Source of the DNA: Sulfuricurvum sp.
GTDB taxonomy: Bacteria > Campylobacterota > Campylobacteria > Campylobacterales > Sulfurimonadaceae
Reading direction: 5' to 3'
Length of the DNA stretch: 49,157 nucleotides
Assembly (NCBI RefSeq): GCF_028681615.1
Contig: NZ_JAQUHV010000015.1
Coordinates: 1-49,157, forward strand
Below, in pieces: positions 3,063 through 19,821 of the stretch. Position numbers and translations under genes: made by a program. The notes below the pieces were generated by a model. That model saw only the letters and a program-made list of their open reading frames with translations, ran no database searches and was not told the DNA's origin. How positions within the stretch are numbered: the first letter of the stretch is position 1; each line of letters begins with the position of its first letter.

Positions 3063-3076
3063 ATCCGCCGGCGGAT
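3063..3076. repeat. 14-bp palindrome ATCCGCCGGCGGAT, copy 2
   Basis: Perfect copy in non-coding DNA inside the candidate origin region, so conservation here cannot be due to a protein. Confidence 0.7.
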
Positions 3077-3941: not shown

Positions 3942-3957
3942 GTTAATAATTATTAAC
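3942..3957. promoter_or_regulatory. 16-bp perfect palindrome upstream of HTH gene
   Basis: GTTAATAATTATTAAC is self-complementary. It lies just after the membrane-protein stop and about 75 bp before the HTH gene at 4030, so it could be an operator for that gene. It has no loop and no U-run and is a poor terminator. Confidence 0.4.
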
Positions 3958-4029: not shown

Positions 4030-4266
4030 ATGTCCGAAGAACTCAACCTCATTAAAAAAGTCTGTCGGGATCATAGCCTCACCTACGCACAGCTTGGTGA
4101 GCGGATCGGGTATGGTGAAAGCTCTATACGTCAGTCGGCATCTACTGGAAAATTAAGTGAACCTCTCCAAAAAGCTATTGAACTCTACCTCCGCACTATT
4201 GATCTCGAAAATCAGGTACAAGAGTATCAAGAATTCAAAAATTTCCTCAAAAAAGCAGTTCAATAA
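4030..4266 (+). CDS. Small HTH protein of antirepressor cassette 1
   Basis: 78 residues from ATG 4030 (CGGAG nine bases upstream). Helix-turn-helix at about residues 16-38 (LTYAQLGERIGYGESSIRQSA), followed by a C-terminal helical tail. It is clearly paralogous to the protein at 18485: both share the pattern C(R/K)(D/E)H..TY..LGE.IGYGE, then KAIEL(Y/F). In both places the gene sits before an ORF6C-type antirepressor gene with a promoter and a palindromic operator in between. Inferred role: a DNA-binding regulator of its own cassette. Confidence 0.75.
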   Translation: MSEELNLIKKVCRDHSLTYAQLGERIGYGESSIRQSASTGKLSEPLQKAIELYLRTIDLENQVQEYQEFKNFLKKAVQ

Positions 4267-4320
4267 GACATTATACATATACTAATCAAACAAAATCATA
4301 CAAATTATATATGTTTACTA

Positions 4321-4375
4321 TTGACATAATATAAAATATGTATTATTATTCTCTTTGTGATACATTAAATGTATC
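4321..4375 (+). promoter_or_regulatory. Promoter plus 17-bp palindromic operator, cassette 1
   Basis: TTGACA (4321-4326), a 17-bp spacer and TATTAT (4344-4349) form a near-consensus promoter. GATACATTAAATGTATC (4359-4375), a perfect inverted repeat around one A, begins about four bases after the expected transcription start. A repressor bound there would block initiation. Cassette 2 has the same layout with a different palindrome arm around the shared ATTAAAT core. Confidence 0.65.
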
Positions 4376-4489
4376 TGTTCCTTGAAACAGAGAGATTCCC
4401 AATCATCCCCCACCTCTCTTTATTGTTAATAACTTTTGCCTATCGGTTATGGAATAATTCACAAAAACCTAATTACAAGAGGAAACCCC

Positions 4490-4753
4490 ATGAGCGACAA
4501 AGACCGCATAGAACTAACATGCAGGGTGCTAGGTATCACGCAGATACAGTTGGCAAGAATGTTTGAAGTTCTCCCGTCAACAATCAGTGAATGGAAACGC
4601 AGAGGGCTACCAACAGGGGCGAAACTCGCCATGCAGCTAATGATTGCACACCCCAACAAGATTGACTCGATAGACGCGCAGTTGAATCTTGAACGGATAA
4701 AAATCATGCAGCAACAGCTCGCTCATTTCGAAGCCTACCTCCTCGCCCAATAA
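4490..4753 (+). CDS. Helix-turn-helix protein, cassette 1
   Basis: 87 residues from ATG 4490 with AGAGG seven bases upstream. Helix-turn-helix near residues 14-38 (ITQIQLARMFEVLPSTISEWKRRG), of the kind seen in phage CI/Cro-like proteins that bind DNA as small dimers; the C-terminal third is an amphipathic helix. It is the first gene after the cassette-1 promoter and has no counterpart in cassette 2, so it may be an added regulator. Its target is unknown. Confidence 0.7.
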   Translation: MSDKDRIELTCRVLGITQIQLARMFEVLPSTISEWKRRGLPTGAKLAMQLMIAHPNKIDSIDAQLNLERIKIMQQQLAHFEAYLLAQ

Positions 4754-4890
4754 CACTGCATCGTTTCAATACGTAACAAATCAAACCAATCAAGATAATC
4801 CGAATTAATACTTAATAATTTGTGCTTACCTGCTTAGTTATATTCACAACATCCGAATGGATACACAAAAAATTAATTAAAGGAGTTCCT

Positions 4891-5673
4891 ATGCAAATCA
4901 TAGAACTGCACATTAAAGACCAAGTTATCGGCACAGAGCTGATCAAAACCGTAAACGCCCGTGAGCTTCACGCATCACTCGGAGCACGCAAAGACTTTTC
5001 AAGTTGGATCAAAGGGCAGATTAATAACCTTGGACTCGATAAGGGAGTAGACTATGCCTCGTTCACCCTAAAAGGTGAGCGAGCAATCGGAGGGACTACA
5101 AGTATCGAATATACCCTCTCCCTCGATGCCGCTAAACACATCGCAATGGTATCCCGAACTCCTCAAGGCAAAATCGTCCGTACCTACCTAATCGAGATCG
5201 AAAAACGATTCTGGGCAGAACGTGGCATATCCGATACCCCACTCGATCAAATCGCACGAGGTGAAGCCCCAAGTGTCCCACATCAGGTGAGTGCTATGGT
5301 CGAACGATTTGAGAAAAAGATAGATGATTTGGAAGCATTCCAAAAAATCCAATACGATGCGCATGTCCGGTTTAGATACGAAACGATCGAAACCCTTGAT
5401 GCGATCCGATATCAGCTCACAGAATTGCAAGGTTCTATCGGTGATAAACGCCTTACACCATCACAGCGTAAAAAACTGTATGAACGTGTGTTGAGCAATG
5501 CAAAAGATTTGTCCGATGAACTCAGACTCGATGATGGAGTCGTAAAACTCGCTGTGTTCTCAAAACTAAAAGAGCATTTCAACGTCGATCACTACACCGA
5601 AATCCCATCACGAGAATTTGACTCGGCTATCGACTTTGTAGATACCATCGATATCTCTAAAAAACGAAGATAA
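4891..5673 (+). CDS. AntA-type antirepressor with ORF6C-like C-terminus
   Basis: 260 residues from ATG 4891, chosen for the AAGGAG at 4880-4885. Residues about 15-100 form an AntA/AntB antirepressor domain (VNARELHASLGARKDFSSWI, later GGTTSIEYTLSLDAAKHIAMVSRTPQGK with long gaps). A coiled middle follows, then an ORF6C-like domain at about residues 185-255 with the hallmark HYTEIPSREFDSAIDFV. Phage antirepressors of this class inactivate prophage repressors by binding them. The C-terminal domain is shared with the BRO-type protein at 18843 although the N-terminal domains differ, a swapped-domain pair. Confidence 0.8.
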   Translation: MQIIELHIKDQVIGTELIKTVNARELHASLGARKDFSSWIKGQINNLGLDKGVDYASFTLKGERAIGGTTSIEYTLSLDAAKHIAMVSRTPQGKIVRTYLIEIEKRFWAERGISDTPLDQIARGEAPSVPHQVSAMVERFEKKIDDLEAFQKIQYDAHVRFRYETIETLDAIRYQLTELQGSIGDKRLTPSQRKKLYERVLSNAKDLSDELRLDDGVVKLAVFSKLKEHFNVDHYTEIPSREFDSAIDFVDTIDISKKRR

Positions 5674-5683
5674 GGAGCCTCAC

Positions 5684-5887
5684 ATGGCATCTCATATAGA
5701 ACAAATCAAAACAGCCATTACAAAACTGGAATTTCTAAACGGAGCTATCGCAAACGCTCCTGAGGGGACTCTCCGTATGGAGGGTTTATATTTCACATTT
5801 GCAGGGGTGATCGAAGAGATCAAATCAGCACTGGACGGTGTAGAAGACCGCCCAGCATACGCCGCTATCAATAAAATAGCATCATAA
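5684..5887 (+). CDS. Small helical protein of antirepressor cassette 1
   Basis: 67 residues starting ten bases after the antirepressor stop, with AAGGAG upstream. It is helical with no known domain. It aligns with the protein at 19585 through the shared pattern EG.....EG(L/M)Y followed by VIEEI or TVEEI. It follows an ORF6C antirepressor in both places, so the pairing is a conserved unit and the product may assist or counteract the antirepressor. Function unknown. Confidence 0.7.
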   Translation: MASHIEQIKTAITKLEFLNGAIANAPEGTLRMEGLYFTFAGVIEEIKSALDGVEDRPAYAAINKIAS

Positions 5888-5898
5888 AGGAGTCGAAT

Positions 5899-6210
5899 AT
5901 GTCAAAAGTACTCTCTAACGCTATCGGGGTTTCGCCAAACACCGATAAAGCCTATGATAACAACCACGCTCAAAGCAACGTCATAAAATCCGTATTCCAT
6001 ACGATCCTCGTTCCGCTAGGGTTATCGCTTGGATCACCCATCGCCGGTTTAGTCTATTTTATCTTAACGATAGTTGCGTATTCTACCATCTTCCGCGCCG
6101 AAAGTTATTATGTCTTCGCGATTATCAAATTCGTTGCCGCACTGATCGCCCTAGCCTCAGCATGGATCTCGTTCCTGTACTCTGCCGCATGGATCGGACA
6201 TACGCTATGA
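5899..6210 (+). CDS. Small membrane protein
   Basis: 103 residues with at least two strong membrane segments (about residues 33-62 and 71-95) after a polar N-terminus. AAAGGAG precedes the ATG. The stop overlaps the next start (ATGA), so it belongs to the early operon that continues to ParA/ParB. Family not recognised. Confidence 0.65.
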   Translation: MSKVLSNAIGVSPNTDKAYDNNHAQSNVIKSVFHTILVPLGLSLGSPIAGLVYFILTIVAYSTIFRAESYYVFAIIKFVAALIALASAWISFLYSAAWIGHTL

Positions 6211-6440
6211 GAGTGAGCCCCGAAACCCAAGAAGAGTTCGAGGCGCTCTATACGTCATTGACCGAACTCTACAGCGAATACACCCTATCGGCCAAGATAG
6301 CCGCACAGATCGAGAAAACCACAATGGCGATCTACATGTACTTCCGTCAACAGTTCACCGGTGGCAGCGAGGCATACAAACGATCCATCATCACAGCGAT
6401 GAAAACATTATTACCCGAACAAGCAGGAGAAGCAGCATGA
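6207..6440 (+). CDS. Small unknown early protein
   Basis: 77 residues from ATG 6207, chosen because it overlaps the previous stop as ATGA. It is mainly helical (for example EFEALYTSLTELYSEY) with no recognised domain. It is translationally coupled on both sides to other very small genes of the early operon. Confidence 0.6.
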   Translation: MRVSPETQEEFEALYTSLTELYSEYTLSAKIAAQIEKTTMAIYMYFRQQFTGGSEAYKRSIITAMKTLLPEQAGEAA

Positions 6441-6601
6441 AACCTAAAACCCAAGACCTAAAAGAGTTGGCAAAATACGCAAAATGTCACGGCTACACCG
6501 TAGAGATCAAATCCGATCACATCGTCGCAGCAAACAACAACGGAGCAGTCAGAACCGGATCGATGGAGACATTGAAAAAAGTTGCAGGGGGTGGAAAGTG
6601 A
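6437..6601 (+). CDS. 54-residue unknown early protein
   Basis: ATG at 6437 overlaps the previous stop (ATGA), and the frame ends at 6601 where it overlaps the next start (GTGA). The product starts MKPKTQDLKELAKYAK and looks like a single small alpha/beta domain. The four-base overlaps on both sides are the main evidence that it is translated. Confidence 0.6.
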   Translation: MKPKTQDLKELAKYAKCHGYTVEIKSDHIVAANNNGAVRTGSMETLKKVAGGGK

Positions 6602-6993
6602 GAATAGCACACTGGGATGTAAAAAAAATATGTGATAAAGATTGTGAAGATTTTGATTTCATCATTGAAATAGATATCCCCTTAACTTTTGATAGAAATC
6701 TTCTAAAGATAAATGGAGATTTTTATTATAAATGCTCATGGGATATGAAAAGAGATATCATCTTTGTAAAGCGAATAAATCCTATTTTTGAAGAAGAAAC
6801 ATATGGGGAAGATGAGATTAAATGCCCTCATTGCGGGGCAAATAAAAGTGATAGTTGGGAGTATTCAGATAGTAGTGACTCAGAGGAATGTCAATCATGC
6901 GGTAGCATATATAGCTATCAAAGAAATGTAGAGGTGTCCTATCAATCTACGTTAATTACAAAAAATGAAACCTATGACGAGGTAGTATCATGA
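6598..6993 (+). CDS. Zinc-ribbon protein of unknown function
   Basis: 131 residues from GTG 6598, preferred over upstream starts because of the GTGA overlap with the gene before. Residues about 80-105 carry two CxxC pairs (CPHCGANK and CQSCGSIY) separated by an acidic serine-rich stretch, a zinc-ribbon fold. The N-terminal 75 residues are acidic beta-type sequence of unknown fold. The stop overlaps the parA start (ATGA). Local DNA is AT-richer than parA, suggesting a separate origin. Confidence 0.65.
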   Translation: MRIAHWDVKKICDKDCEDFDFIIEIDIPLTFDRNLLKINGDFYYKCSWDMKRDIIFVKRINPIFEEETYGEDEIKCPHCGANKSDSWEYSDSSDSEECQSCGSIYSYQRNVEVSYQSTLITKNETYDEVVS

Positions 6994-7622
6994 AAACCCT
7001 AACCATAGCCAGTACCAAAGGCGGAATGGGAAAATCCACCATCACATGGAACATCGGAGCCGCTATCCGTGAGAGCGGAGCTTCCATCGCTTTTATTGAC
7101 ATCGATGTTCACTCTACTCTTACCCATACGAACGATGCGAGAGTTGCTTCAGGACTGGAACCGCTCACGGTGCTCAGACCCAAAACGATTCAAGAGTTGG
7201 TAGACTTCATCCAAAACACAGAAGTTGACTATATCCTCATCGACGTAGGCGGATACGATTACGACCTCGGACGTGTAGCCATCGCTATCGCCAATCAGAT
7301 CATCATCCCCATCTCCGAAGACCCCACAGAGATTTTCGGCTTTCAGACGTTCGCGATATTCCTCGCACAAATCGAGGAGCAGTCTCCATTGCCTCCGATC
7401 ACATTCGTAATTAACCACGCGCACTACAGAGCATCTACGTTCCCAAAAGTGCGCGAAGTAGCCGCTCTCAGACCGACCGCCACGATAGCAGAAACGATCA
7501 TCCGACGCAGAGCGGTGTATTCCGCATCGATGGGAACAGGTATCGGTGTAGCAGAACAACCGGCACGATACGCCACTGCCGCCGATGAGATCACACGACT
7601 GGCACGGGAGGTGATGGGATGA
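6990..7622 (+). CDS. parA: ParA-type partition ATPase
   Basis: 210 residues with the deviant Walker A motif KGGMGKST (residues 10-17), the switch region FIDIDVHSTL (35-44) and Walker B YILIDVGG (81-88). It is short, with no N-terminal helix-turn-helix, as in type Ib plasmid ParA proteins, which do not repress their own operon directly. It should move DNA cargo over the nucleoid together with ParB. The stop overlaps the next start (ATGA), and ParB follows one gene later. An intact partition pair on a prophage suggests a phase of life as a plasmid. Confidence 0.88.
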   Translation: MKTLTIASTKGGMGKSTITWNIGAAIRESGASIAFIDIDVHSTLTHTNDARVASGLEPLTVLRPKTIQELVDFIQNTEVDYILIDVGGYDYDLGRVAIAIANQIIIPISEDPTEIFGFQTFAIFLAQIEEQSPLPPITFVINHAHYRASTFPKVREVAALRPTATIAETIIRRRAVYSASMGTGIGVAEQPARYATAADEITRLAREVMG

Positions 7623-8140
7623 ATAATATCGAATTTAAAGCTCTCATAGAAGAGCAAAAAAAACACGTTATCAAGCGTCACGCTCAATACATGGATATGA
7701 GCCTTAATGGAAAATTGCACAACAACGACAAAGACTTTTCGACATACGTTTCATACTCAAAATCCGACTTTGATCTCAGCCGATGTGATGATCTAGATGA
7801 ATTGATTGAACACTTACAAGAGTTCAAAACATCATTACAATCGCAAAGTAAAATGTACGGATTTCACACTGACATTGAGATTTATGCAAGCGAGGATTAT
7901 GTCGAGCGATCTCATGTTAATGCAATATGGTATTACGTTAGAACACTTAATGATGAGTTCATTGAAAATACGGCAATTAAATTAGCAACGGATATTTTAT
8001 CAGAGGTAATCAAGCCGGATGGATATGATTTGAAAGCTCGTAAGATTGACCATAAACTGATACCTCTTTTTCTCGGAGGATCTATGGATATAGAGGCTCT
8101 GAGAGAACTCACATACAACATCGATCTATGTGATTATTGA
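7619..8140 (+). CDS. Unknown protein between parA and parB
   Basis: 173 residues, acidic and helical, with no recognised domain, signal or membrane segment. It overlaps parA by ATGA and lies ten bases before parB, so it is made together with the partition proteins. An extra gene between parA and parB is unusual and could be an accessory partition or regulatory protein. That idea rests on position only. Confidence 0.6.
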   Translation: MNNIEFKALIEEQKKHVIKRHAQYMDMSLNGKLHNNDKDFSTYVSYSKSDFDLSRCDDLDELIEHLQEFKTSLQSQSKMYGFHTDIEIYASEDYVERSHVNAIWYYVRTLNDEFIENTAIKLATDILSEVIKPDGYDLKARKIDHKLIPLFLGGSMDIEALRELTYNIDLCDY

Positions 8141-8150
8141 GGAGCAAACT

Positions 8151-8990
8151 ATGACCCAAAAATTCAACCCCGCCCTCCTAGCCTCCATCGCAGCCGGTGC
8201 ATCACTGGGAACCAACACACCCGATGTCACCGACACCAATGTCGGAGACATCCCCATCGCCCGCATCGACCCGAACCCATATCAGCCCCGCCTCGATTAT
8301 GATCCGATAGTCGTTCGAGAACGTGCAGACTCCATCGATAAACACGGACTCCTCCAGCCTATAGCCGTGCGACGAAACGGTGATCGTTATACCCTCATAG
8401 CAGGGCAAACCCGCCTAGAAGCGCATAAACTCTTAGGACGAGAAACGATCAAATCCAACATCATCGATGCTTCGGATGAAGATATGGCATCCCTCGCCCT
8501 GATCGAAAACGTCCAACGCTCCGACCTTCACCCCATCGAGATCCAAATCGCCCTATCGCGTGAGCCGTTCGCTTCGATGAAAGATGAAGAGATCCGAGGG
8601 ATCACCGGATACTCCCTCACCAAAATCCGAAACATCCGATCCATCAGCCGACTCTCTCCGGAGGTAAGAGAGCACCTAAGCACTCACCGCCCCTCCATCG
8701 GTGTCGAACTACTGGCCGAACTGCAAAAGTATCCGGAGCACACCCAAATCGGAGAATATCACCGTATCCTTAGAGGTGATACAAACCGATCTGATCTTCG
8801 TATGACATTGCAGCTTATAAATTCAAAGCAAAAATTCCAAAAAGACCAAGAAGACTCAAAACGAAATCTCTTTGAACAATCAAATCATTCATACTTTATC
8901 AGTAAGAGTGATCTCGATATGAAAAAGAAAAAAGCGTTTGAATCAGAGCTTACCGAGCTAATCAAAAAATACAAATCGAAAGGTGTATAA
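8151..8990 (+). CDS. parB: ParB/Spo0J-type partition protein
   Basis: 279 residues from ATG 8151 with GAGGAG upstream. It has the ParB N-terminal CTPase fold: NPYQPR (42-47), GQTRLEAH (85-92, in place of GERRxxA) and ENVQRSDL (119-126). A helix-turn-helix follows at about 145-170 (EIRGITGYSLTKIRNIRSIS), and a lysine-rich C-terminus for dimerisation. It should load on a parS site and act with ParA. A perfect ATCCGCCGGCGGAT palindrome lies 290 bp downstream, with five more across the prophage; these are the best visible candidates for its target. Confidence 0.88.
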   Translation: MTQKFNPALLASIAAGASLGTNTPDVTDTNVGDIPIARIDPNPYQPRLDYDPIVVRERADSIDKHGLLQPIAVRRNGDRYTLIAGQTRLEAHKLLGRETIKSNIIDASDEDMASLALIENVQRSDLHPIEIQIALSREPFASMKDEEIRGITGYSLTKIRNIRSISRLSPEVREHLSTHRPSIGVELLAELQKYPEHTQIGEYHRILRGDTNRSDLRMTLQLINSKQKFQKDQEDSKRNLFEQSNHSYFISKSDLDMKKKKAFESELTELIKKYKSKGV

Positions 8991-9021
8991 TATGCAGAAT
9001 AGACACCGATTAGGAAGAAAA

Positions 9022-9279
9022 ATGAATATACAATTTAACCTGCAAGGTTCTACTCCATGGGCAGTAGATAAGGGGATATCTTTCATAGCAAAAGTAGACG
9101 GTAATAATGTAACTTGTACAGTTACTAAGGAGTATTTAACTGATTGTGACCCAGTAAATAAAGAGCGGAGTGATATTGATAAATTCAATGCAAACAAATA
9201 TCGTATACAATCGATAGCTGAGGATAAAATCAGAAACAAAATTTTCCCTGTTATAATCAATAAATCCGACTTAAAATAA
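9022..9279 (+). CDS. DUF1488-like small protein
   Basis: 85 residues from ATG 9022, chosen for AGGA at 9012-9015; earlier starts at 8983 and 8992 have no ribosome site of their own. The order of an aromatic N-terminal strand, a KVDGNNVTCTVT-type core and a C-terminal helix with an FN.NKY.IQSIAEDKI pattern resembles DUF1488 proteins, whose function is unknown. It is the last gene of the par operon. Family call is tentative. Confidence 0.5.
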   Translation: MNIQFNLQGSTPWAVDKGISFIAKVDGNNVTCTVTKEYLTDCDPVNKERSDIDKFNANKYRIQSIAEDKIRNKIFPVIINKSDLK

Positions 9280-9280
9280 A

Positions 9281-9294
9281 ATCCGCCGGCGGAT
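9281..9294. repeat. 14-bp palindrome ATCCGCCGGCGGAT, copy 3
   Basis: Perfect copy in non-coding DNA, starting two bases after the last gene of the parA/parB operon. Partition sites are commonly found next to their par genes. Confidence 0.75.
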
Positions 9295-9359
9295 CGTAGC
9301 TAGGCTGTTACACAAGTGCACAATACCCACATAAATTAGGATTTATACAATTTTATGTC

Positions 9360-9436
9360 CATATTGTTGCAAATTTGTGGTATATTTTTTAGTGCGTGCA
9401 CTGCAAATCGGTTCACACTATGGTAAAATTCGCGTC
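9360..9436 (+). promoter_or_regulatory. Promoter region of the 9460 gene
   Basis: The stretch contains TTGCAA followed by TATATT, an AGTGC/GCACT inverted repeat around GT just after it, and a TAAAAT further on. It is the only non-coding DNA before the 9460 gene and is AT-rich. Which hexamer is used cannot be decided by eye. Confidence 0.35.
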
Positions 9437-9459
9437 CACAATTACTTTAAAGGTCTTAT

Positions 9460-9993
9460 ATGCTTCATAAAGCTACCGTATCAGATTTAGATGCACTATT
9501 ATCTGATTGGTCAGAGTCTACATTACCGTATGGTGATGAAGGAACAGTTTATGCTAATGACCTTTATGAAAAAGTAGGAGCGTTAAAGAAAAGTATTGCA
9601 GAACCTGATAATCATGCCTATATCTTTAAATTAGTAGATGGCAGATCACGGGCTTTACTTAGTATAATTCATGCAATGCCAAGATCAAGTGCACCTTGGA
9701 TAAAATTACTTGATCTTGATTTACACCCTGATTTAGTTCTTGGTGATTTCAATCATGATGATGTTGCTGTAGCTTTAGGTTCATCTATTTTTGACTCGAT
9801 GGCTCTTTTATTCGCCGATTATGCTATGGCAAAAGAGTTAAAGATTTACGGGCGAACAGAGAGTATGATTAAAACTTTTGATCGTTTAGTAAAGAATAAA
9901 GCATTAATGGATATCCTTGCTGAAACCGATATTATCTGTAGTAGAAACAAGCATTGGCTTTATTTTAGAAAAATAACCCCATTACAAAAATAA
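9460..9993 (+). CDS. Possible GNAT-like protein
   Basis: 177 residues. The start MLHKATVSDLDALLSDW is like the first strand and helix of GNAT acetyltransferases; a central strand pair (ALLSIIHAMP and WIKLLDLDLHP) and a later helix-strand (FADYAMAKELKIYGR) fit the same fold. The usual acetyl-CoA loop is not clear, so the call is weak. It is AT-rich and rightward, with its own promoter, and forms a pair with a 55-residue gene. The two lie between the par operon and the converging late genes, a typical place for an accessory gene. Confidence 0.35.
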   Translation: MLHKATVSDLDALLSDWSESTLPYGDEGTVYANDLYEKVGALKKSIAEPDNHAYIFKLVDGRSRALLSIIHAMPRSSAPWIKLLDLDLHPDLVLGDFNHDDVAVALGSSIFDSMALLFADYAMAKELKIYGRTESMIKTFDRLVKNKALMDILAETDIICSRNKHWLYFRKITPLQK

Positions 9994-10003
9994 GGAAAAA
10001 AAG

Positions 10004-10171
10004 ATGAAAAACGCAGAAAATGTAAAAGTAGCTCTAATTGAAGCAGTATCTTTGGCATTGGAAGAACATCTAAAAGAAAACGGAACACTTAAAAACCTTG
10101 ATTGGTTTAACGTATCCGATAAAACAACTGATTTTTATGCAGAGCAGTTACAAGAAGTAACCGCAGCATAA
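10004..10171 (+). CDS. 55-residue unknown protein
   Basis: ATG 10004 is preceded by AAGGA, ten bases after the previous stop. The product is acidic and helical (SLALEEHLKENGTLKNLDW) with no known domain. It is probably co-transcribed with the 9460 gene. Confidence 0.55.
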   Translation: MKNAENVKVALIEAVSLALEEHLKENGTLKNLDWFNVSDKTTDFYAEQLQEVTAA

Positions 10172-10177
10172 TTTATA

Positions 10178-10197
10178 GAGGCGGCCTAACTCGCCTC
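10178..10197. terminator. Hairpin between converging operons
   Basis: GAGGCG (10178-10183) pairs with CGCCTC (10192-10197) around an eight-base loop, exactly between the rightward 10004 gene and the leftward portal stop. There is no clear U-run on either strand, so a bidirectional terminator is likely by position only. Confidence 0.4.
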
Positions 10198-10202
10198 CTC
10201 CC

Positions 10203-12017
10203 CTACCCCATCTCACCCCCAGTACCATTCCCCTGATCAGCTACTCCACCCGATTGTGAAATAAAATGCTGAGCACGCGCCGCATTGACGAGCGACTGTG
10301 ATTCGAGATTCTTGATCTTACTCTCCATCTGTTTAAGGGCGAGCTGTACTTGCTGCTGCTGCATCTGAGCCTCTTCCGGATTACCGGCATTTTTCTCCAG
10401 TTCCATGACGAGTTCCAGCATCTTATCCGCTGCCGGTGATTGCACATCGCGCAGAAGCTCAGGGAAATACCGCTGAGCGAGCAGAGGATTGATCTGAGCG
10501 GCCGCTTTGAGCAGTTCCGTACCCTGAGCATAGCGCTCACCGATAGCCCCGTTGTTCTGAGGGATCATCTGCATCGTGATGTCGTATCTCCCTACCATGA
10601 TCTTATTGCGACGTTTCGGGATACCGTTCTCACGCACTACTGCATTGTAGCTGTCTCTCTCGATCTCATTGATCGTAAAGTATTTCTCCGCTTCATCCCT
10701 CTCCACGATACGGAAAATCTGCTCCGCATCAAAATACTGCTGGACATAAAAACATCCTATTCGGTAGAAATCGAGATCCTGATTCTCACTGCGTGTAAGG
10801 AACCGCTGTAACCCTACCATCCCCGCATTCTGCCGTTTCTCTACCGCAAACCCGCTCAAACGGTTCGACGCAGTACCTAGCGCCTCATCATTGAGCCCTA
10901 TGATCTCCTGACACTGCTTGCGGGTATCGATGATCTGCTGCATGAGATACTGGATCTCCGCATTATGCTTGATCTCTTTGATTCTACCATCACTGATTGC
11001 CCCGTCGCGCATTTTGACGACGGCATCATCTTTGCTGTACTCATCCGCAAATACATCCGGATCATCCACCGCCCCCTCTTCATAGAGCAGTTTCGTACTT
11101 CCGAGCATATTCGCGATACGAAGGTGTTTGAAGTTGATGCTGTCCTGTAACGGCATGATATCCTCGAACAGCCCGTACACATACCCGTCTTTCTTTTGAA
11201 ACAGCTTACGGATGGCAAACGGGAACCCGTCGAACAGATACGGACTGTCCCCGCATTTGAGCATTGTGTTATTGCTCCAGATATACCATCGCGTCACCCG
11301 CTTACCGAGTGCTTTATCGTACTCTTTTGTCCACGTCGTCGTGACGAGGATACGGTGACGATTCATATCGCGTGATCCGTATCGGTTGCGCCACTCGTTC
11401 TGATCATAATCGTTCGTATAGTTGCTGTCACTTAGGAGAGTATCGACGAGTGCGGCATCAAAATGCTCATACAGTGTTTCACGATCCAGCCATCGCACAC
11501 GGTGAAAATACCGCGCATCGGAATAGTCAGGAGACTTCGAGTACGGATCGGGATACGCTTCGTTAAACGGTACGTGGAACCCGTGGATCTCTTTTTCGCT
11601 GTTACCGAGGATATCGGTACTCGGCAGGATACGCACCGACGCTTCCATCACCGAGATACCGGCGATCATCAGATCCTCGTCGCATAACTCTTTGTGAGCA
11701 TAAAAATCGGTACTGTCGGGGATAGAGTTGAGGACATCCCCGATGATCTGCCCCTCTCCCATATCGACACGCTGGCGACCTTTTACGCTGACTTTCTGCT
11801 CATTCCCCAGCTTGTACCCCAGGATCTTGTTCCCGATCTTTTTATACTGGTTCTCCCACTGTATCGGCTGACCGCGTGAGCTGAGTACCGCTATCGTCTC
11901 AGGATCGAGCTGATCCCCGTCAAAATACCGGCGATGCTTATTCGCATTGGCTCTCCAGTCACGTGAGAGCTCATAACTCTCAGTGAGCATTAAACGCAGT
12001 TCCACGACCGTTTTCAT
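10203..12017 (-). CDS. Portal protein (P22-like)
   Basis: 604 residues. The N-terminus (ELSRDWRANANKHRRYFDGDQL, then WENQYKKIGNKILGYKLGNEQKV with gaps), the central stem and clip part (PLQDSINFKHLRIANMLGSTKLLYEEGAV) and the C-terminal Gln-rich coiled coil (about 545-590) are typical of podoviral portal proteins. Twelve copies would form the DNA channel of the head, fed by the terminase at 36-37.6 kb. It is the last gene of the late operon and overlaps the stop of the giant polyvalent protein by one base. A portal gene 24 kb downstream of terminase is an uncommon order. Confidence 0.8.
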   Translation of the reverse strand: MKTVVELRLMLTESYELSRDWRANANKHRRYFDGDQLDPETIAVLSSRGQPIQWENQYKKIGNKILGYKLGNEQKVSVKGRQRVDMGEGQIIGDVLNSIPDSTDFYAHKELCDEDLMIAGISVMEASVRILPSTDILGNSEKEIHGFHVPFNEAYPDPYSKSPDYSDARYFHRVRWLDRETLYEHFDAALVDTLLSDSNYTNDYDQNEWRNRYGSRDMNRHRILVTTTWTKEYDKALGKRVTRWYIWSNNTMLKCGDSPYLFDGFPFAIRKLFQKKDGYVYGLFEDIMPLQDSINFKHLRIANMLGSTKLLYEEGAVDDPDVFADEYSKDDAVVKMRDGAISDGRIKEIKHNAEIQYLMQQIIDTRKQCQEIIGLNDEALGTASNRLSGFAVEKRQNAGMVGLQRFLTRSENQDLDFYRIGCFYVQQYFDAEQIFRIVERDEAEKYFTINEIERDSYNAVVRENGIPKRRNKIMVGRYDITMQMIPQNNGAIGERYAQGTELLKAAAQINPLLAQRYFPELLRDVQSPAADKMLELVMELEKNAGNPEEAQMQQQQVQLALKQMESKIKNLESQSLVNAARAQHFISQSGGVADQGNGTGGEMG

Positions 12018-15000
12018 CAGTTACCCCCGAACAATTTTTTCATAGCGTTCTCATTTTTCTTTAGATTTTTATCCGTTACTTTAGGATCATAGGTTTGAGT
12101 ATTAACCCCAAACAGTTTGAGCATTTGTTGTTTAGTAGTACGTGGTACTACATCTTGGTATTGCTTACGTTTTTTCTCTTCGACAATCTGCCCTTTAGCA
12201 AAATCATAGATATTCATAGCCTCCATTGGAACCGGTATCGCTTTATCTACAACGAATCGCCCGACGTTCATCATCTCTTGAGCATCGGTTTGTTTACCGC
12301 TTCCGATGATAGGACGACCCGAATAACTATCGGTATGTTTTGGCAATGTTGCTACAGCAGCAGATATTGGAGGCCCGCTCAGTAAGGTAGATGCAGCAAA
12401 ATTAGATGAAGCATCAGTTGCCCCTTTCGTTGCCTCCCATAGGGCATGGACGGTGGAGTGTGATACTTGATACCCGCGTGCTCCGTCGATAACGGCTTCC
12501 ATAGGGATAGAGGCGATATCAAATCCGGGTAAAATACGATCGATCTTGATTGTATCGATATGCCCATCTTTATCGACGTTATACCCCAGTCGTCTTCCTA
12601 CTGCATCCGTTGGTAAATCGGCGTTAGATTTCCCTTCCATTTGCATAATTGTTTCAGATAGTACCATCGGAGCACCGATCACTGCTACTGCCCTCCATTT
12701 ATTCTGCTTAGCAAGTTTCAAAATATTTGGGAGAACATAATACGTCCATGAGATAAAAGGAGCCGCACCGCTATCCCGTAGTTTTCTCACCCCGCTTGGG
12801 AGTGGACGGGTATAGTCTGGAAGTATTGCTTCGATCTCACGCTGTGCATCAATCATGTTGATATTTTTTTGACGGCGTGTAACATACATCGCTAAACGTA
12901 CCAACCCATCTTCCGCTTGATACATACCCTGAGCAACCTCATTCACTTTGCCTAGGGCTTTACCTACTCCACTCTTTTGTTGCTTGAAATACTCAGACCC
13001 GCCATAACCATGCAGGATATCTTGCAGTTGTGATTTACCGAATAACCCGATTTTCACTGCCTCCATGACATAAGGGTTATCTTGGATTAATGTATCCAGT
13101 TCTTGCAGTTCTTCACTGCTTGCCTGACCCGCCGTTTTTTTAACCTTTAAATCCTCGATACGTGTATGCGCTCTCATCATCCTATACGCTTCATCGAAGT
13201 TTTCAAAAGGGTTATTATCCCCCGACAAGAAACGGAGCATGATATTAGAAGAGAAGTTATTAAAATGCGACCCCGCATTCCATACGGTTTTACTTTGTTT
13301 CCAAAATGACAAAGCCCCTAACCATTTTTTAAACCCTTCCCCCATCTCTTCCATACGGATTAAATCCTGCGCTACACGTTTATCGACCCATTGGGTAGAG
13401 AGCGCCCCGTATCGTTTACTGTTAGGCATTTTGACCCAGCCCATCCCCTTCATTACTTCATCGTCTTTGACTTCTCCCTTAAATACGATAGTAGGATCAT
13501 CCGCGAGCTGTTTAAACATCCGAGCCGTCTGTACTTGATTGGCTAAACGTGCCATCGTATTAGGGACAGTGAGTGCTGCATTTTCGATCTCACCCATCGC
13601 CTCACGCTCACCCTTAGTCCAGTCACGATCAAATACGACTTTCCCATTATCAAAATCGATTTTTACCCCACCTGCTGTTTTTTCACCTAAATACCCTTTT
13701 TCTGTAGCATCAGCTATCAGTTCGTCCATATTGGAGTTAAAAGTATCTAAAGGCTCTAACCCCTTAACAACCCCAAAATCATTTAGGTACTTATATGCCT
13801 CTTCAGCCTTATCGGTAACGAGCTGTTTACCCCGTTGGTACTCTTTCGGCAGCCCTTTAGTGATAACATGCGGTTTTTCCTTAGCCCCAAACCAATGCTC
13901 ATCATAGAGACGTTTTAGATATTGATCTCGATACGCATCACGAGTTTCAGCATCGATCATTCCCAGTTCAAAAAGCTCCTCAGACTGAGCATTTATTCTG
14001 GCATTGATCGTATCCCCTAGACGTTTTAAAAATGCATACGGCTCAGGCAGTTCCGTAATATCTTTGACGATGTACCGCTGTAACATCATATTGGTTTCCA
14101 GTTCCATCTTCGAGAGAGCTTTATGCAAGACTGTAGCATCGGCAAAATCCTGAGCTACCCCTGCATGTTTCAACTGAGTTGCCGTTTCATAAGCTTTTGG
14201 CAGAGTAAAATGAGTATGCGCCCAGTCTTTTAATGCCTCTTTGACGATATTCTTATCATCGATTAATGTTTTAGCGATAGTATGATTCACGAGATTTTTA
14301 ATCCGCTCTTGGCTCATATGATGAATATCACCGACGAGTTTACCGACAGCAGCACGTGCGGTTTTAGAGAGGAGCAATGTCCCCCCAGTGATACCCGCCA
14401 TCCCCAATACTGCCTTTACCGGATCAAACGTGATATTCCCATTCTCATCCTGCCCCACTCCCGCTATTGCTCCAAATCCATGAGCATAGAGCGCCTGACC
14501 GTTTTTGGCGATATCCTCTTTCATCTTGGCATTGACGGGAAAACTCCATACCTCTACCCCATTCGGAAGCGTTTTCTTCTCTACCGTTACTCCCCATTTT
14601 TTCGTGTACTTTTTGGCATAGTCTACGAGGATCTTGTCATAGAACCCTTTCATCCCGTCCCCGCCGATATCGAGTGCTTCCCCCTTGATCTCATGGATGC
14701 CTTTGTGGACTTCATTCTCCATCAGACGTTTCGCCGGTTCTTTCCCGATCAGGTGTTCGAGTTCACCCTCATCCGCGTTTTTGTACATCACCGATTTGCC
14801 GTCTTTGTAACCCTCGATGACATGATAATTTTTATTGTATACGAGACGATCTACGCTGTGACTCATCGCATATCGATTCGCCTGTGTTGCACCGTCCACC
14901 CACGCGACACGATCATACCCCTTGGCCACCGCTTCATCGATGAGCTGACGCATACCGAACTCATGCCATGTTTTTGACATAGGGGCATTAGGTACATTTT

Positions 15001-18000
15001 CACCTTTACGCTTTGCCTGCATCCAGTCACTTTGGATCTCTTCAACGAGGAGCGTTTTATCCCCATCGATAATAGTATCTTGCTGACGGGTATGGAGGAG
15101 TACATTTGGCTCATCCCAGTGGGATGAAGAATAACTTCCTTTACTATCGGGTAAAGTCGTCAACTCTTCGCGATAATTTTCCCCACCATCCGTGGAATAC
15201 TTTTCATACTTTGGAGCTTCGAGAACCTTTCTCTCCATCACCGGATTGGCAAACGCCCCCTCGATCTCCGCTTTCGTAATCGACGTTTTCCCCTCTACCG
15301 CTTTAGCGATTCCGCTATGGAGGATCTCATCATCTTTTACCCCGTTGTTTTTGAGGTACTTGATAAACGCCTCACTCTCCATCTTCGGAGGCATCTTCTC
15401 GATAGCTCTTTGTGCCGCACTGTAAAATCCGCCGGCGGATTGTGGCTCTTCTTTCGCCCGTGAAAACTGTACTTCTTGACTATCCGTACCATTCGGGTGT
15501 ATAATTTCTTCATCCAGACCCTTTCCGTCGATCATATGATCGCTCGGTGTTTTAGAGGCTATGCCTTGTCCGACGTGAGTCGCGGGGTCTGAGTGTTTAA
15601 AATACTTCACATGACCATCCGGTACTTTCATCATACTTTTTACACGATCTTCACTGACATCAAAAAATGTTTTAAGTTTTAGTCTGCCATCCCCATCTTT
15701 AGTAATCCCGATCAGATGCGTCAACCCGTCTTTCTCGATAAACGGTTTATAGTACGTAACATTCCCTTTTACTTTTTCTTCCACAACAAAAAGAGGCTCT
15801 TTAAGCGTAGAGTAAAGCGCTCCTGATAAATGCTGACGATCTGCATAATAGGTATTATTCCCTGAAAAATGGCGATAGGTTTCACCGGCATGCAGACGTA
15901 CATCTCCGGCAGGAGTTTTCAATGTTACCCATGAATGTGTCCCTAAAAGATCGAAGAAATCTTTTTTACCGATAGGCTCAGGCAGCTCTATTGCCTCTTT
16001 AGCAAGAGCATTCATATTGATGCGGCCGCTCTTAGGGTCAATATACATTTTTTCGATTACTCTGGCATGGAGCATCGTATCTTTAGAAATAATTTGGTTA
16101 TCCCCGCGCTTCACCGCCCCCCATGCCATCGCAGATAGATCCTGCGGTGTCAGTTTGAGACGCATCGGGCTGATACTGAGACGGATCAGCTGCTGTTTGA
16201 TCCATGCGATCACACGACGTGCGATTGTAGTATCCGGATGCGCTTGAATCAGATATCCCAGTGCCTCCTCATCGACTTTATGTGCAGCGGTATTTTCAGG
16301 GACACGCGCATACGCTTCTTTGATGATCGGGTCATCGCTTTCGCGCATTGTACTGAGGATACGGTTAAACTCTTTATCCCCTGATCCCGCTTTACGTAGA
16401 TGCACCCCCACTTCATGCATCACCAGCCCGCGTACCTGTGAATCGCTCCACTCTTTAGGGATATTATCCGCTACGATATAGGCTTTCCCCTCATGGATAA
16501 ACCCGTGTATCCCATCGCTGCTATCCCCCGCTTTTTTGAGTACGGCTTCGGGGATATCCGCTTTACTAATCGTTTGCAGGATCGGAGATAACCGGCTATC
16601 GATATCCTCTCCTACCGCAGAGCGTACCGATTGCTTCATCGATTCCATCGTATGGACTTCAGGTACACTTTCCCCCTTTGAAAACGGGATATCCACCTCC
16701 TCTCCGGTAGCTTCATCGATATACTTGTCCCCCTCTACTCTCCCCGTAGGCTCTACAGGACGATACTCCGGATGATTATCCAGTACATCTAAATCCTTTT
16801 TAAACTTCTCAGAGAGTTCGGGAGTCAGGCCGTTTTTCTCATACGAGGCGATATCCGCTTTCGTGAGGCTCATATCATGAGCATAGTTTTTGACATCCGT
16901 TTCGGGGATTACCGTCGTTTCATATCCTCCGCCGTTATTTTCATGGATGAGGATGCGGTCACTCTCACGGATATTCGGGCGCTCCGCTTGCTTGGCGGAT
17001 ACATCACGTCGCATATCTATCAGCTCTTGGAGACGCGGATGCGACTCGATGGCCTCTTTGTCCGCTTGGAAAGCTTCTTGTGCTTTTTGCTGAGCTTCGA
17101 GTTCCGCTTTACGCGCCATTGCTTCTTCATGCGCCGCTTGCACCCGTGTATCCTGCTCCGCTTGCGCTTTGACTTTTGGATCTACCGGGGGGATTTCTTC
17201 TTTGGGTGCGACATTGATGTTGTTAGCAGATGCAGAATCCGCCGGTCTTATATCCTCTGGGTGTGGATTTGAGGTAGGAATCTCTTCATTTTTGTGACTG
17301 ACATTGATGTCGGTTGCAACCTCTTCTTTTCCTGTACTGGGAACTTCTTTCGCTATTTCAATCTCAGGTGCACCATACTCATCCGCTATCGCCTTGGCAA
17401 TCGCTTCATCTTTAGCGAGGACTTCAGGGGCTGCTTTGGGCTTTGGTAGGTCGATACCCATAGCCTCCGATGAGCTTTTTAAAATATCATCCGCCGCATC
17501 GAATATATGCTGCTGCCCTGCGCTCAGCACCTTAGTTTCTCGTATCTTAGCAATATTGGCTGCACGCCCTACTGCTTTGACTGGGGCCCCGACTGAGTTG
17601 AGGGGATCGGCGATAACCCCCTCAGCGAGTACATAATCAGGATTTGCATCGGCAAACGTTGTAGTCCGCTCCCCGTTTCTATACTGATAATCCCCGCCAA
17701 ACTCTTTCGCTATTGCTTTCCCCGTCTCTTCCCCCCCGATTACAGAACCGATAGTAGTAGGGATCGCCATCATAGGGCGGGCAGGGTTAAACTGATCGGA
17801 GAGTTGTTGGAGTGCGGGTTTTTTAGACTCTTCGATTTGAGCTGTCCGTTTTTGATTCTGTTCTTCGCGTTTTTGATGCCCGACTTCGAGCTCAGCAGCT
17901 TGCTTTAACGTATCCATATACTCATCGCTGCGTCTGCCCATAGCATACTGGTTTTTAGCCAGTGCATATTTTTCGACCGCACTTATAGGCTGAGTCGGTT

Positions 18001-18265
18001 TTTCTTGATCTTTTTCATACGCAGAAGCTACGGCTTTAAATGGAGCCGTAACCGCATCTACGACTTTAGTGAGAGTACTTTTTTCAGGCTTTGGAATAGA
18101 CTCAGTAAGATACTGTTTATACACAGCATTTTTATCCGATTGTGGCATATCGGCATAATCTTTTCCGGTGGCAATATTCTCTATAAAATATTGACGTGCC
18201 ACCAGCTTCTGATCCGAAGGGTTCATATCTAAAAATTCTTTACTTTTAAATAGCTCTTGGTTCAT
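12017..18265 (-). CDS. Giant polyvalent virion protein with metallopeptidase and PBECR-like domains
   Basis: 2082 residues from ATG 18265, with TTAGGA upstream; an in-frame extension to 18352 has no ribosome site. Visible parts: a Glu/Ala/Lys-rich region to about 480; a metallopeptidase-like domain with HEVGVH (HExxH, His617 and His621); a region at about 765-893 (THSWVTLKTPAGDVRLHAG) resembling phage Barnase/EndoU/ColicinE5/RelE-like nucleases; a polyvalent-protein domain with EIQSDW (about 1074-1130); and a late segment WKQSKTVWNAGSHFNN (about 1655) like C-terminal LPD domains. Such proteins are packed in the head and injected with DNA to act on the new host. The gene precedes portal. Confidence 0.75.
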   Translation of the reverse strand: MNQELFKSKEFLDMNPSDQKLVARQYFIENIATGKDYADMPQSDKNAVYKQYLTESIPKPEKSTLTKVVDAVTAPFKAVASAYEKDQEKPTQPISAVEKYALAKNQYAMGRRSDEYMDTLKQAAELEVGHQKREEQNQKRTAQIEESKKPALQQLSDQFNPARPMMAIPTTIGSVIGGEETGKAIAKEFGGDYQYRNGERTTTFADANPDYVLAEGVIADPLNSVGAPVKAVGRAANIAKIRETKVLSAGQQHIFDAADDILKSSSEAMGIDLPKPKAAPEVLAKDEAIAKAIADEYGAPEIEIAKEVPSTGKEEVATDINVSHKNEEIPTSNPHPEDIRPADSASANNINVAPKEEIPPVDPKVKAQAEQDTRVQAAHEEAMARKAELEAQQKAQEAFQADKEAIESHPRLQELIDMRRDVSAKQAERPNIRESDRILIHENNGGGYETTVIPETDVKNYAHDMSLTKADIASYEKNGLTPELSEKFKKDLDVLDNHPEYRPVEPTGRVEGDKYIDEATGEEVDIPFSKGESVPEVHTMESMKQSVRSAVGEDIDSRLSPILQTISKADIPEAVLKKAGDSSDGIHGFIHEGKAYIVADNIPKEWSDSQVRGLVMHEVGVHLRKAGSGDKEFNRILSTMRESDDPIIKEAYARVPENTAAHKVDEEALGYLIQAHPDTTIARRVIAWIKQQLIRLSISPMRLKLTPQDLSAMAWGAVKRGDNQIISKDTMLHARVIEKMYIDPKSGRINMNALAKEAIELPEPIGKKDFFDLLGTHSWVTLKTPAGDVRLHAGETYRHFSGNNTYYADRQHLSGALYSTLKEPLFVVEEKVKGNVTYYKPFIEKDGLTHLIGITKDGDGRLKLKTFFDVSEDRVKSMMKVPDGHVKYFKHSDPATHVGQGIASKTPSDHMIDGKGLDEEIIHPNGTDSQEVQFSRAKEEPQSAGGFYSAAQRAIEKMPPKMESEAFIKYLKNNGVKDDEILHSGIAKAVEGKTSITKAEIEGAFANPVMERKVLEAPKYEKYSTDGGENYREELTTLPDSKGSYSSSHWDEPNVLLHTRQQDTIIDGDKTLLVEEIQSDWMQAKRKGENVPNAPMSKTWHEFGMRQLIDEAVAKGYDRVAWVDGATQANRYAMSHSVDRLVYNKNYHVIEGYKDGKSVMYKNADEGELEHLIGKEPAKRLMENEVHKGIHEIKGEALDIGGDGMKGFYDKILVDYAKKYTKKWGVTVEKKTLPNGVEVWSFPVNAKMKEDIAKNGQALYAHGFGAIAGVGQDENGNITFDPVKAVLGMAGITGGTLLLSKTARAAVGKLVGDIHHMSQERIKNLVNHTIAKTLIDDKNIVKEALKDWAHTHFTLPKAYETATQLKHAGVAQDFADATVLHKALSKMELETNMMLQRYIVKDITELPEPYAFLKRLGDTINARINAQSEELFELGMIDAETRDAYRDQYLKRLYDEHWFGAKEKPHVITKGLPKEYQRGKQLVTDKAEEAYKYLNDFGVVKGLEPLDTFNSNMDELIADATEKGYLGEKTAGGVKIDFDNGKVVFDRDWTKGEREAMGEIENAALTVPNTMARLANQVQTARMFKQLADDPTIVFKGEVKDDEVMKGMGWVKMPNSKRYGALSTQWVDKRVAQDLIRMEEMGEGFKKWLGALSFWKQSKTVWNAGSHFNNFSSNIMLRFLSGDNNPFENFDEAYRMMRAHTRIEDLKVKKTAGQASSEELQELDTLIQDNPYVMEAVKIGLFGKSQLQDILHGYGGSEYFKQQKSGVGKALGKVNEVAQGMYQAEDGLVRLAMYVTRRQKNINMIDAQREIEAILPDYTRPLPSGVRKLRDSGAAPFISWTYYVLPNILKLAKQNKWRAVAVIGAPMVLSETIMQMEGKSNADLPTDAVGRRLGYNVDKDGHIDTIKIDRILPGFDIASIPMEAVIDGARGYQVSHSTVHALWEATKGATDASSNFAASTLLSGPPISAAVATLPKHTDSYSGRPIIGSGKQTDAQEMMNVGRFVVDKAIPVPMEAMNIYDFAKGQIVEEKKRKQYQDVVPRTTKQQMLKLFGVNTQTYDPKVTDKNLKKNENAMKKLFGGN
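15427..15440. repeat. 14-bp palindrome ATCCGCCGGCGGAT, copy 4
   Basis: Perfect copy inside the polyvalent gene, where it is read as SAGGF, a different frame from copy 1. Confidence 0.7.
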
Positions 18266-18312
18266 AATCATCCTAATATGGTTCTTTGATTCGATAATAA
18301 CTACTTTACAGT

Positions 18313-18335
18313 TTATAAAATAGGGTGAGTAATCA
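18313..18335 (-). promoter_or_regulatory. Late promoter motif, variant copy upstream of polyvalent gene
   Basis: On the minus strand it ends CTATTTTATAAA and matches the 23-bp late motif at 19 positions. Its end lies 47 bases before the start codon at 18265, close to the 42-44 bases seen for the two other genes with the motif. Confidence 0.55.
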
Positions 18336-18372
18336 CCAGCGCATCGTTTCAATGAGTATAAATAATTTTGGG

Positions 18373-18395
18373 TTTATAAAATAGCGGGGGTAATT
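18373..18395 (-). promoter_or_regulatory. Late promoter motif, exact copy upstream of polyvalent gene
   Basis: Exact copy of the 23-bp motif found at 27728 and 35210. On the minus strand it reads ATTACCCCCGCTATTTTATA plus flanks. It lies 60 bp behind the variant copy, giving a tandem arrangement in the intergenic region shared with antirepressor cassette 2. Confidence 0.65.
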
Positions 18396-18484
18396 GAGAT
18401 AGACGGACTTAATACTTTTCGACACCGCTTCATGCTACTATTACGCATTAAAACTGTAAATAATACTACTTAGAGGTATTCAGA

Positions 18485-18724
18485 GTGGAAAACGAAAATA
18501 TTATCAAAGCGACGTGTAAAGAACACGGTATGACATATAAAGAGCTTGGAGAAAATATAGGATACGGAGAAGAAGCAGTCGGTAAAGCTTCCCGTACTGG
18601 TGAAGTAAGTAAACCAATGTTAAAAGCCATTGAGCTATTTAATGAAAATATTATGTTAAAAGAAGAGAGTAAAACTCTTGATGATTTAAAAAACATATTT
18701 GAAAGGGTAATTTCCCGTAAATAA
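18485..18724 (+). CDS. Small HTH protein of antirepressor cassette 2
   Basis: 79 residues from GTG 18485, with AGAGG eight bases upstream (18472-18476). Helix-turn-helix MTYKELGENIGYGEEAVGKAS near residues 15-36, paralogous to the protein at 4030 over its whole length. It is divergent from the polyvalent gene and lies on the strand opposite to all late genes around it. The TTAATACGTTAATA-type repeats just after it (18722-18734 and 18753-18767) may be further binding sites. Confidence 0.75.
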   Translation: MENENIIKATCKEHGMTYKELGENIGYGEEAVGKASRTGEVSKPMLKAIELFNENIMLKEESKTLDDLKNIFERVISRK

Positions 18725-18769
18725 TACGTTAATTAAATTACAAAATACAAATTTAATACGTTAATACAC

Positions 18770-18824
18770 TTGACAAACACTTATATAATCCGCTAATATT
18801 ACTTTATGACCGTATTAAATACGG
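18770..18824 (+). promoter_or_regulatory. Promoter plus 15-bp palindromic operator, cassette 2
   Basis: TTGACA (18770-18775), an 18-bp spacer and TAATAT (18794-18799), then CCGTATTAAATACGG (18810-18824), a perfect inverted repeat around one A starting about four bases after the expected start site. The layout matches cassette 1; the central ATTAAAT is shared while the arms differ, as expected for two related regulators with different specificity. Confidence 0.65.
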
Positions 18825-18842
18825 ATTATAAAGGAGACTTCA

Positions 18843-19574
18843 ATGAGTCAAATAATCCCTTTCAACTATGGAGACAAACAAATCCGTGTACTGACAGATG
18901 AAACAAACGGTGATCCCCTATGGGTTGCTAAAGATGTTTGTGATGTGTTAGATTTAAAAGATGTAAACCGTTCATTATCAAAACTTGATGACGATGAAAA
19001 GGGTACTCAAACTTTGAGTACCCTTGGTGGAAACCAAAAAATGGCAGTCATCACCGAAAGCGGTCTCTACACCTTGGTGCTCCGCTCCAACAAACCCGAA
19101 GCCAAAACATTCAAACGATGGGTAACCCACGAAGTCCTCCCCGCGATCCGCCGCACGGGAAGCTATAGTGTTGTATCCCCCGACATGACAAATATGTTCC
19201 AGTCCAATGAGCGAATGATGAATGATCTAGCCGATAGACAAACCAAAATCCTACGTGACGCGGTAGACTCGATGGCGATGATGATTGCCGATACGCGGGA
19301 AGATATGAGAGCCGTATCCCGTGACGTTGCCGCGTTGCGCCTCAACGTCGGAACGAGACTCATCAATGCCGAAGAACGCCGTACCATCTACGAAACGATC
19401 ACCCGACGAGGTATAGAACTTGCGAGGGTTCACGGTATCGACCCTTCCGTATCGACGGGAGCGATCTTCGCCCGTATCAAATCCCGCTTTGGGTTGGGTC
19501 ACTATACCGAACTCCCCTCCGACCGAGTAGCCGAAGTCCTCCGATTTATCGAAAACTCTGAAATCTCATATTAA
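18843..19574 (+). CDS. BRO-type antirepressor with ORF6C-like C-terminus
   Basis: 243 residues, with AAGGAG before the ATG. The N-terminal BRO domain (about 5-105) has DPLWVAKDVCDVLDLKDVNR, then TESGLYTLVLRSNKPEAKTF and HEVLPAIRRTGSY. A helical linker follows, then an ORF6C-like C-terminus (about 170-240) with HYTELPSDRVAEVLRFIENS. Proteins of this type act as phage antirepressors. The C-terminal domain matches that of the AntA protein at 4891, and the neighbours on both sides match too, so this is a second copy of the same cassette with another N-terminal domain. Confidence 0.82.
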   Translation: MSQIIPFNYGDKQIRVLTDETNGDPLWVAKDVCDVLDLKDVNRSLSKLDDDEKGTQTLSTLGGNQKMAVITESGLYTLVLRSNKPEAKTFKRWVTHEVLPAIRRTGSYSVVSPDMTNMFQSNERMMNDLADRQTKILRDAVDSMAMMIADTREDMRAVSRDVAALRLNVGTRLINAEERRTIYETITRRGIELARVHGIDPSVSTGAIFARIKSRFGLGHYTELPSDRVAEVLRFIENSEISY

Positions 19575-19584
19575 AGGATATAAC

Positions 19585-19821
19585 ATGATATACGATACAC
19601 TTGAAACCCCTATGATCGCTGACCGCTTGGAAATATCTCTATCAAAAATCGATTTTATCGCCTCATTCCTATCTGATTACAAAGAGGGAAATATACTAAA
19701 TAGTGAGGGGATGTACTATATCCTTCGTGATACTGTCGAAGAGATACGAGAACTCTTCGAGTTTACGAAAGAAACACCGTTGCCCGAACCAAAACCGCAA
19801 CTGTTTAAACGTGCGGCATAA
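19585..19821 (+). CDS. Small helical protein of antirepressor cassette 2
   Basis: 78 residues, ten bases after the BRO gene. It aligns with the protein at 5684 (EG.....EGMY, then TVEEIRE). It ends three bases before the stop of a leftward virion gene, so transcription converges here with no visible terminator. Function unknown. Confidence 0.7.
   Translation: MIYDTLETPMIADRLEISLSKIDFIASFLSDYKEGNILNSEGMYYILRDTVEEIRELFEFTKETPLPEPKPQLFKRAA

Follow-up and report, generated by a model that had tools for sequence, protein, structure and literature searches.

The window analysed here (the whole of contig 15, 49,157 nucleotides, in the 2.66 Mb genome of a Sulfuricurvum sp.) contains a prophage with two copies of a unit in which a small Xre/Cro-like helix-turn-helix (HTH) gene precedes an antirepressor operon. 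Antirepressor genes were found to carry a palindrome of 24-25 bp (24-27 bp in the window) in the codons of their N-terminal domain, with a sequence that differs between phages, and the N-terminal domain probably binds this putative operator within its own codons, autoregulating its own gene. Most likely, a dimer of the N-terminal domain would bind the palindrome as duplex DNA, and binding would shut off or meter transcription of the gene that contains it; upon swaps of the N-terminal domain, operator and reader would travel together.

The antirepressor genes of the two units (cassettes 1 and 2) and their embedded palindromes are the following:

18843-19574, + strand: Bro-N antirepressor of cassette 2, BRO (P0005; Pfam Bro-N, E 4.2e-24; structure predicted)
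18999-19025: embedded palindrome AAGGGTACTCAAACTTTGAGTACCCTT (27 bp, 13-bp arms), in BRO codons 53-61, predicted wing strand 1
4891-5673, + strand: AntA + ORF6C antirepressor of cassette 1 (P0004; Pfam AntA, E 5.6e-22; ORF6C, E 3.4e-5; structure predicted)
5059-5082: embedded palindrome TCGTTCACCCTA/AAAGGTGAGCGA in the AntA gene, with an even centre, at the family position, +21 from DY

The BRO palindrome is the longest in the window (about 0.05 expected with arms of 11; none longer in 20 simulations), and no second close match to it was detected in the genome. Palindromicity beyond the amino-acid constraint was assessed with synonymous-codon shuffles as the null. Among antirepressors of the Campylobacterota an excess was found at nt 140-190 in 17 of 75, versus 1-3 in other stretches. 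Bro, AntA and Rha genes were also taken from viral contigs and clustered: 27 of the 51 Bro-N clusters reached p ≤ 0.05 at nt 140-190 (0-2 in the other bins; mean z 1.82 ± 0.17), and the counts from the shuffles at the same position were 15 of 51 clusters for AntA and 22 of 30 for Rha. A palindrome at a fixed position of the domain, in excess of the amino-acid constraint, was found in these families and in BRO of the window. KilA-N palindromes were seen in individual cases only, as an anchor scan for that family yielded zero sequences.

Because the best palindrome of each gene is otherwise picked, the centre was fixed by a protein motif and each left arm was scored against its own right arm and against those of other sequences. 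With the centre fixed in this way, Bro genes gave 235 of 320 pairs, versus 149 ± 8 with swapped 3' arms and 60-100 with slid centres. A scan of 240-300 centres gave a single peak per family (z 16.7 for Rha, 12.0 for Bro and 8.5 for AntA; runner-up about 4), and in a held-out Bro set, fetched afterwards, the peak was located at exactly the same position (z 6.7). The Bro gene of Edwardsiella phage GF-2 contains a perfect palindrome of 25 bp, AGGGTGTAACTTTAAGTTACACCCT, and palindromes are also present in the named phages PAJU2, BK5-T and Blinn1. A restriction of the palindrome to Campylobacterota, suggested by a first test that took only perfect arms and a loop of ≤ 1, was discarded, as the shuffles find it in unrelated phages.

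In the predicted structures, the palindrome codes for the first hairpin strand after two short helices (residues 53-60 in BRO; 55-60 and following in the AntA protein). Mutual information was calculated between palindrome bases and protein columns, with the columns coded by the palindrome excluded. The columns that track the palindrome best are those of the second helix: SRDAL (Y-S-N) in Bro, HKSVRRLI in Rha and QDFSNW in AntA; in Bro, Arg most often pairs with G in the palindrome. In clusters below 60% identity this putative recognition helix still leads, and it exceeds the controls from other codons clearly in Rha and AntA and narrowly in Bro. The Bro-N model resembles the APSES DNA-binding domains Mbp1 and PCG2-DNA, the latter a DNA complex, with Z 7.3-7.6. 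A sequence search of solved structures with Bro, AntA and Rha gave no useful match.

A neutral origin of the palindrome was considered, in which template switching restores perfect arms in a beta-hairpin that tolerates the change. Template switching at quasi-palindromes is a known mechanism of mutation hotspots, and the motif KG...TL/P of Bro provides a seed of complementary outer codons. It is nevertheless an unlikely explanation: Bro-N, Rha and AntA share the structural place of the palindrome despite different peptide motifs, and template switching fails to predict the coupling with helix residues that lie beyond the palindrome.

Several observations weigh against an operator read by the protein that encodes it. 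The AntA palindrome of the window (5059-5082) is not significant by itself (p 0.26), about half of the Bro clusters are without a clear palindrome, and none was seen in the antirepressors of phiMR25 and NrS-3, which were checked for it. The coupling with the helix rests, at 60% clustering, on n = 24, 27 and 12, with a Bro excess of 0.89 versus 0.86 for the best control, and the mutual information was controlled for phylogeny in part only. The fold resemblance at Z 7.3-7.6 may be unspecific, and Foldseek gave no significant match. Finally, an operator that serves autoregulation alone and lacks a partner site close to the promoter would be unusual.

The arms of the palindrome covary while its sequence is not conserved. 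The same would be expected of a stem-loop in the antirepressor mRNA, with a role in mRNA stability, in attenuation or in processing by RNase III, since a stem needs pairing but leaves the sequence free. As RNA, the embedded sites of the window have good folding scores (z -4.7 and -2.7). However, the innermost palindrome pair, which is unable to form in a hairpin, covaries as well (p 2e-4); G-T and A-C mismatches are depleted alike (21 G-T and 28 A-C in the selected set, with no excess of G-U); and sense and antisense strands are equally foldable. Duplex DNA is favoured over RNA for these three reasons, and an mRNA stem-loop, which moreover leaves the coevolution with recognition-helix residues unexplained, appears improbable. 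An Rfam search of five test loci gave zero matches. The centre of the Bro palindrome lies in the middle of a codon, and since codons are complementary across the hairpin, the residue pairs facing each other include V/D, T/R, R/T, L/Q and R/P, for which a reason at the protein level is not obvious.

The palindrome could in principle serve as operator for another regulator, either the linked small HTH protein or the CI repressor: intragenic operators exist (lac O2 in lacZ) and an HTH gene is located directly upstream in many units. This is judged distinctly improbable, given that the palindrome is also found where the 450 nt upstream contain no HTH gene, and that near-identical HTH proteins beside a different type of antirepressor go with different palindromes. 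In addition, each phage has a single site, whereas immunity repressors are served by several. One site per record was counted in 15 of 15 phage records and one in the genome of the window, where further copies of the embedded palindrome were searched for and none was found; a repressor with several operators is disfavoured because of this single site per phage record and per genome.

The remaining genes of the two cassettes, and the CI-like repressor of the prophage, are the following:

4030-4266, + strand: HTH-a of cassette 1 (P0001; phrog_4779, E 4e-11; alternative start 3997)
4490-4753, + strand: HTH-b of cassette 1 (P0003; phrog_4779, E 4e-6)
5684-5887, + strand: small protein of cassette 1 (P0006; sequence comparison)
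18485-18724, + strand: HTH of cassette 2, GTG start (P0002; phrog_4779, E 1.5e-14)
19585-19821, + strand: small protein of cassette 2 (P0007; sequence comparison)
1906-2583: CI-like S24 repressor (Pfam)

The window contains a duplicated HTH-antirepressor unit with an exchanged N-terminal domain. An earlier note on this DNA had described two cassettes of an HTH gene, an antirepressor and a small protein, a make-up that agrees with the data except that it overlooked the second HTH gene of cassette 1 (4490-4753, phrog_4779-like). The HTH genes 4030-4266 and 18485-18724 are paralogous as it had claimed (39% identity, E 5e-23; both phrog_4779; the HTH proteins of the window score under the cutoff of the Pfam HTH models), and the N-terminal domains are swapped, with AntA in 4891-5673 (Pfam E 6e-22) and Bro-N in 18843-19574 (E 4e-24). 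The shared C-terminus of the antirepressors was borne out as a relationship (26% over 137 amino acids, E 2e-12), but ORF6C is above the Pfam cutoff in the AntA protein alone. Paralogy of the small proteins received weak support (23%, E 1e-7 in a single comparison), and a third homologue matches both. In each cassette the small Xre/Cro-like HTH gene adjoins the antirepressor on the same strand, as in Xre-Bro and cro-ant pairs, and the antirepressors combine an N-terminus of the Bro-N/AntA/KilA-N/Rha group with a C-terminus of the KilAC/ORF6C type, assigned in BRO by homology to the AntA protein.

Between the cassettes lies a gene for a phage protein of 2111 amino acids (12017-18352, minus strand), and ParA/ParB-like, virion and terminase-like genes were read from the translations within the prophage. 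Six copies of a further palindrome, (A)ATCCGCCGGCGGAT(T), are distributed over the window (1240-1255, 3063-3076, 9281-9294, 15426-15441, 29476-29491 and 35881-35894).

Promoter-like sequences and palindromes outside the coding regions of the cassettes were read as follows:

4321-4349, + strand: promoter-like TTGACA-17-TATTAT (-10 at 4344)
4359-4375: perfect palindrome GATACATTAAATGTATC (17 bp), 9 nt past the -10; RNA folding z -3.9
18770-18799, + strand: promoter-like TTGACA-18-TAATAT (-10 at 18794)
18810-18824: perfect palindrome CCGTATTAAATACGG (15 bp), 10 nt past the -10; RNA folding z -5.1
3942-3957: palindrome GTTAATAATTATTAAC, located 5' of HTH-a in cassette 1, a possible operator

The promoter-like sequence followed by a palindrome around ATTAAAT, as the earlier note had proposed, is present in both cassettes, with a gap from the -10 of 9 and 10 nt and not of four. 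The palindromes at 4359-4375 and 18810-18824 have ATTAAAT alone in common, and the second extends into a 14-bp stem that reaches as far as the Shine-Dalgarno sequence. As about 8 palindromes with arms ≥ 7 are expected by chance per 49 kb, each is improbable in its short gap. They are plausible as putative operators for the HTH protein, and both may equally form 5' mRNA stem-loops.

A three-part module of HTH protein, antirepressor and small protein, each HTH protein reading its intergenic palindrome, is compatible with self-binding of the antirepressor domain, and we regard it as possible though doubtful. Both intergenic palindromes occupy positions from which operators would block the antirepressor promoter, relatives show an excess of palindromes in the corresponding gap, and Nitratiruptor phage NrS-3 repeats the gene order, with an inverted repeat after its -10. 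On the other hand, the small protein is rare, the fit of 5' stem-loops is equally good, and the enrichment is modest (palindromes with arms ≥ 7 in 9 of 66 HTH-antirepressor gaps versus 4.1 expected, p about 0.005). When units with similar HTH helices were compared, the palindromes did not match the linked HTH. Coevolution ties a protein to a different putative operator, the one within the antirepressor gene.

The HTH-antirepressor unit recurs widely in Campylobacterota genomes of the order. Relatives of the HTH protein were found in 57 of 299 genomes of the order, and in 112 of 399 by profile search; a large proportion of them have an antirepressor-like gene downstream in the same orientation, typically at a distance of 45-160 nt, whose N-terminus is of the Bro-N, KilA-N, Rha or AntA type. 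The small protein did not hold as a general third part, with homologues in 2 of the 299 genomes. A scan of viral contigs for close relatives with the HTH gene gave none.

Three genomes of one family, Candidatus Thiovulum, contain at least 14-18 copies of the unit each, many of them in tandem. Within a genome, the copies hardly differ at the start of the HTH protein and at the end of the antirepressor; variation falls in the recognition helix, in the gap and in the N-terminus of the antirepressor. Tandem and dispersed arrays were located at loci L073 (G039:C1:918000-925000), L074, L075, L111, L143 and L092-L101, and it is possible that they constitute a chromosomal diversifying system.

Other relatives differ in composition. 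NrS-3 (L483, 738-2372) encodes, in an order close to that of cassette 1, an HTH protein, a promoter with a long inverted repeat, a membrane-like protein, an AntA antirepressor and a gene of 75 amino acids in the place of the small protein, for which homology to the small protein was not detected. In a relative of the same genus (L109, G212:C7:625000-630000, 1253-2196), a 182-amino-acid protein has the HTH fused at its end and the small protein directly after it; the antirepressor is absent and the ParA neighbourhood of cassette 1 comes next. In genus g2 of family f1 (e.g. G148:C1:458297-458518) an HTH-like match lies inside a frame some 200 codons long, in most cases with a single copy per genome; this frame, present in many genomes of the family of the window, is perhaps a host gene.

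The HTH-antirepressor pair could also be a toxin-antitoxin system. Such pairs are TAS-like by prediction (PMC2701414), and overexpressed pneumococcal Ant and Bro inhibit growth, but the cognate Xre failed to counteract this toxicity (PMC4257102). A Pfam search of the window proteins gave no toxin domain, and a toxin-antitoxin function seems very unlikely.

Bro-N, AntA and Rha are common phage regulators for which few DNA targets are known. On balance we lean towards a broader generalization from the sequence families, namely that the phage antirepressor superfamily (Bro-N, AntA and Rha, with fewer examples of KilA-N) would store its own binding site in the wing codons, that site and helix would coevolve, that specificity would move as one cassette, and that the recognition rules would be readable from genomes. 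If so, targets would be predictable for many such proteins and the recognition code of the fold could be learned from covariation. The fast shuffling of domains seen both among phages and within the Thiovulum arrays would also be explained, as the N-terminal domain would bring its operator along, and codon and amino-acid patterns of these genes may reflect DNA binding.

The HTH-antirepressor unit itself is of a known kind, since Xre-Bro, xreA-ant/bro-xreB and cro-ant pairs have already been described. The Xre-Bro pair was described by Makarova et al. 2009 (PMC2701414), and the pneumococcal prophage pairs xreA-ant and bro-xreB were studied in PMC4257102. These systems share with the window an HTH gene beside an AntA or Bro-N antirepressor and, in the prophage of PMC4257102, two pairs per prophage with differing N- and C-terminal domains. 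They were described as phage-borne and absent from bacterial genomes, whereas the units described here recur in Campylobacterota contigs and are tandemly amplified in Thiovulum; the embedded palindrome is unreported there. Pairs annotated as cro-ant or HTH-ant are present in phages such as BK5-T, phiMR25 and Sfi21, in whose lysogeny modules the antirepressor is likewise immediately preceded by a small HTH/Cro-like gene; in the window, in contrast, the CI-like repressor (1906-2583) sits apart and two units are present.

The N-terminal domains of the window are interchangeable on related C-termini, as in the shuffling of Bro-N, KilA-N and AntA domains with KilAC/ORF6C that Iyer et al. 2002, as cited in PMC4257102, are said to have reported. 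The Bro-N model shows a fold resemblance to the APSES/KilA-N winged-helix domains (Mbp1, PCG2-DNA), but sequence identity is 8-12% and Z middling. In the open-licence literature no description of the embedded palindrome was found, and we know of no account of an operator that is encoded by its own reader and moves together with the N-terminal domain. The closest parallels are the operators within coding sequences, lac O2, which lies in lacZ, and the internal operator of gal; those sites are fixed and located in another gene, whereas the palindromes described here lie in the codons of the putative reader's own DNA-binding domain and vary between phages.

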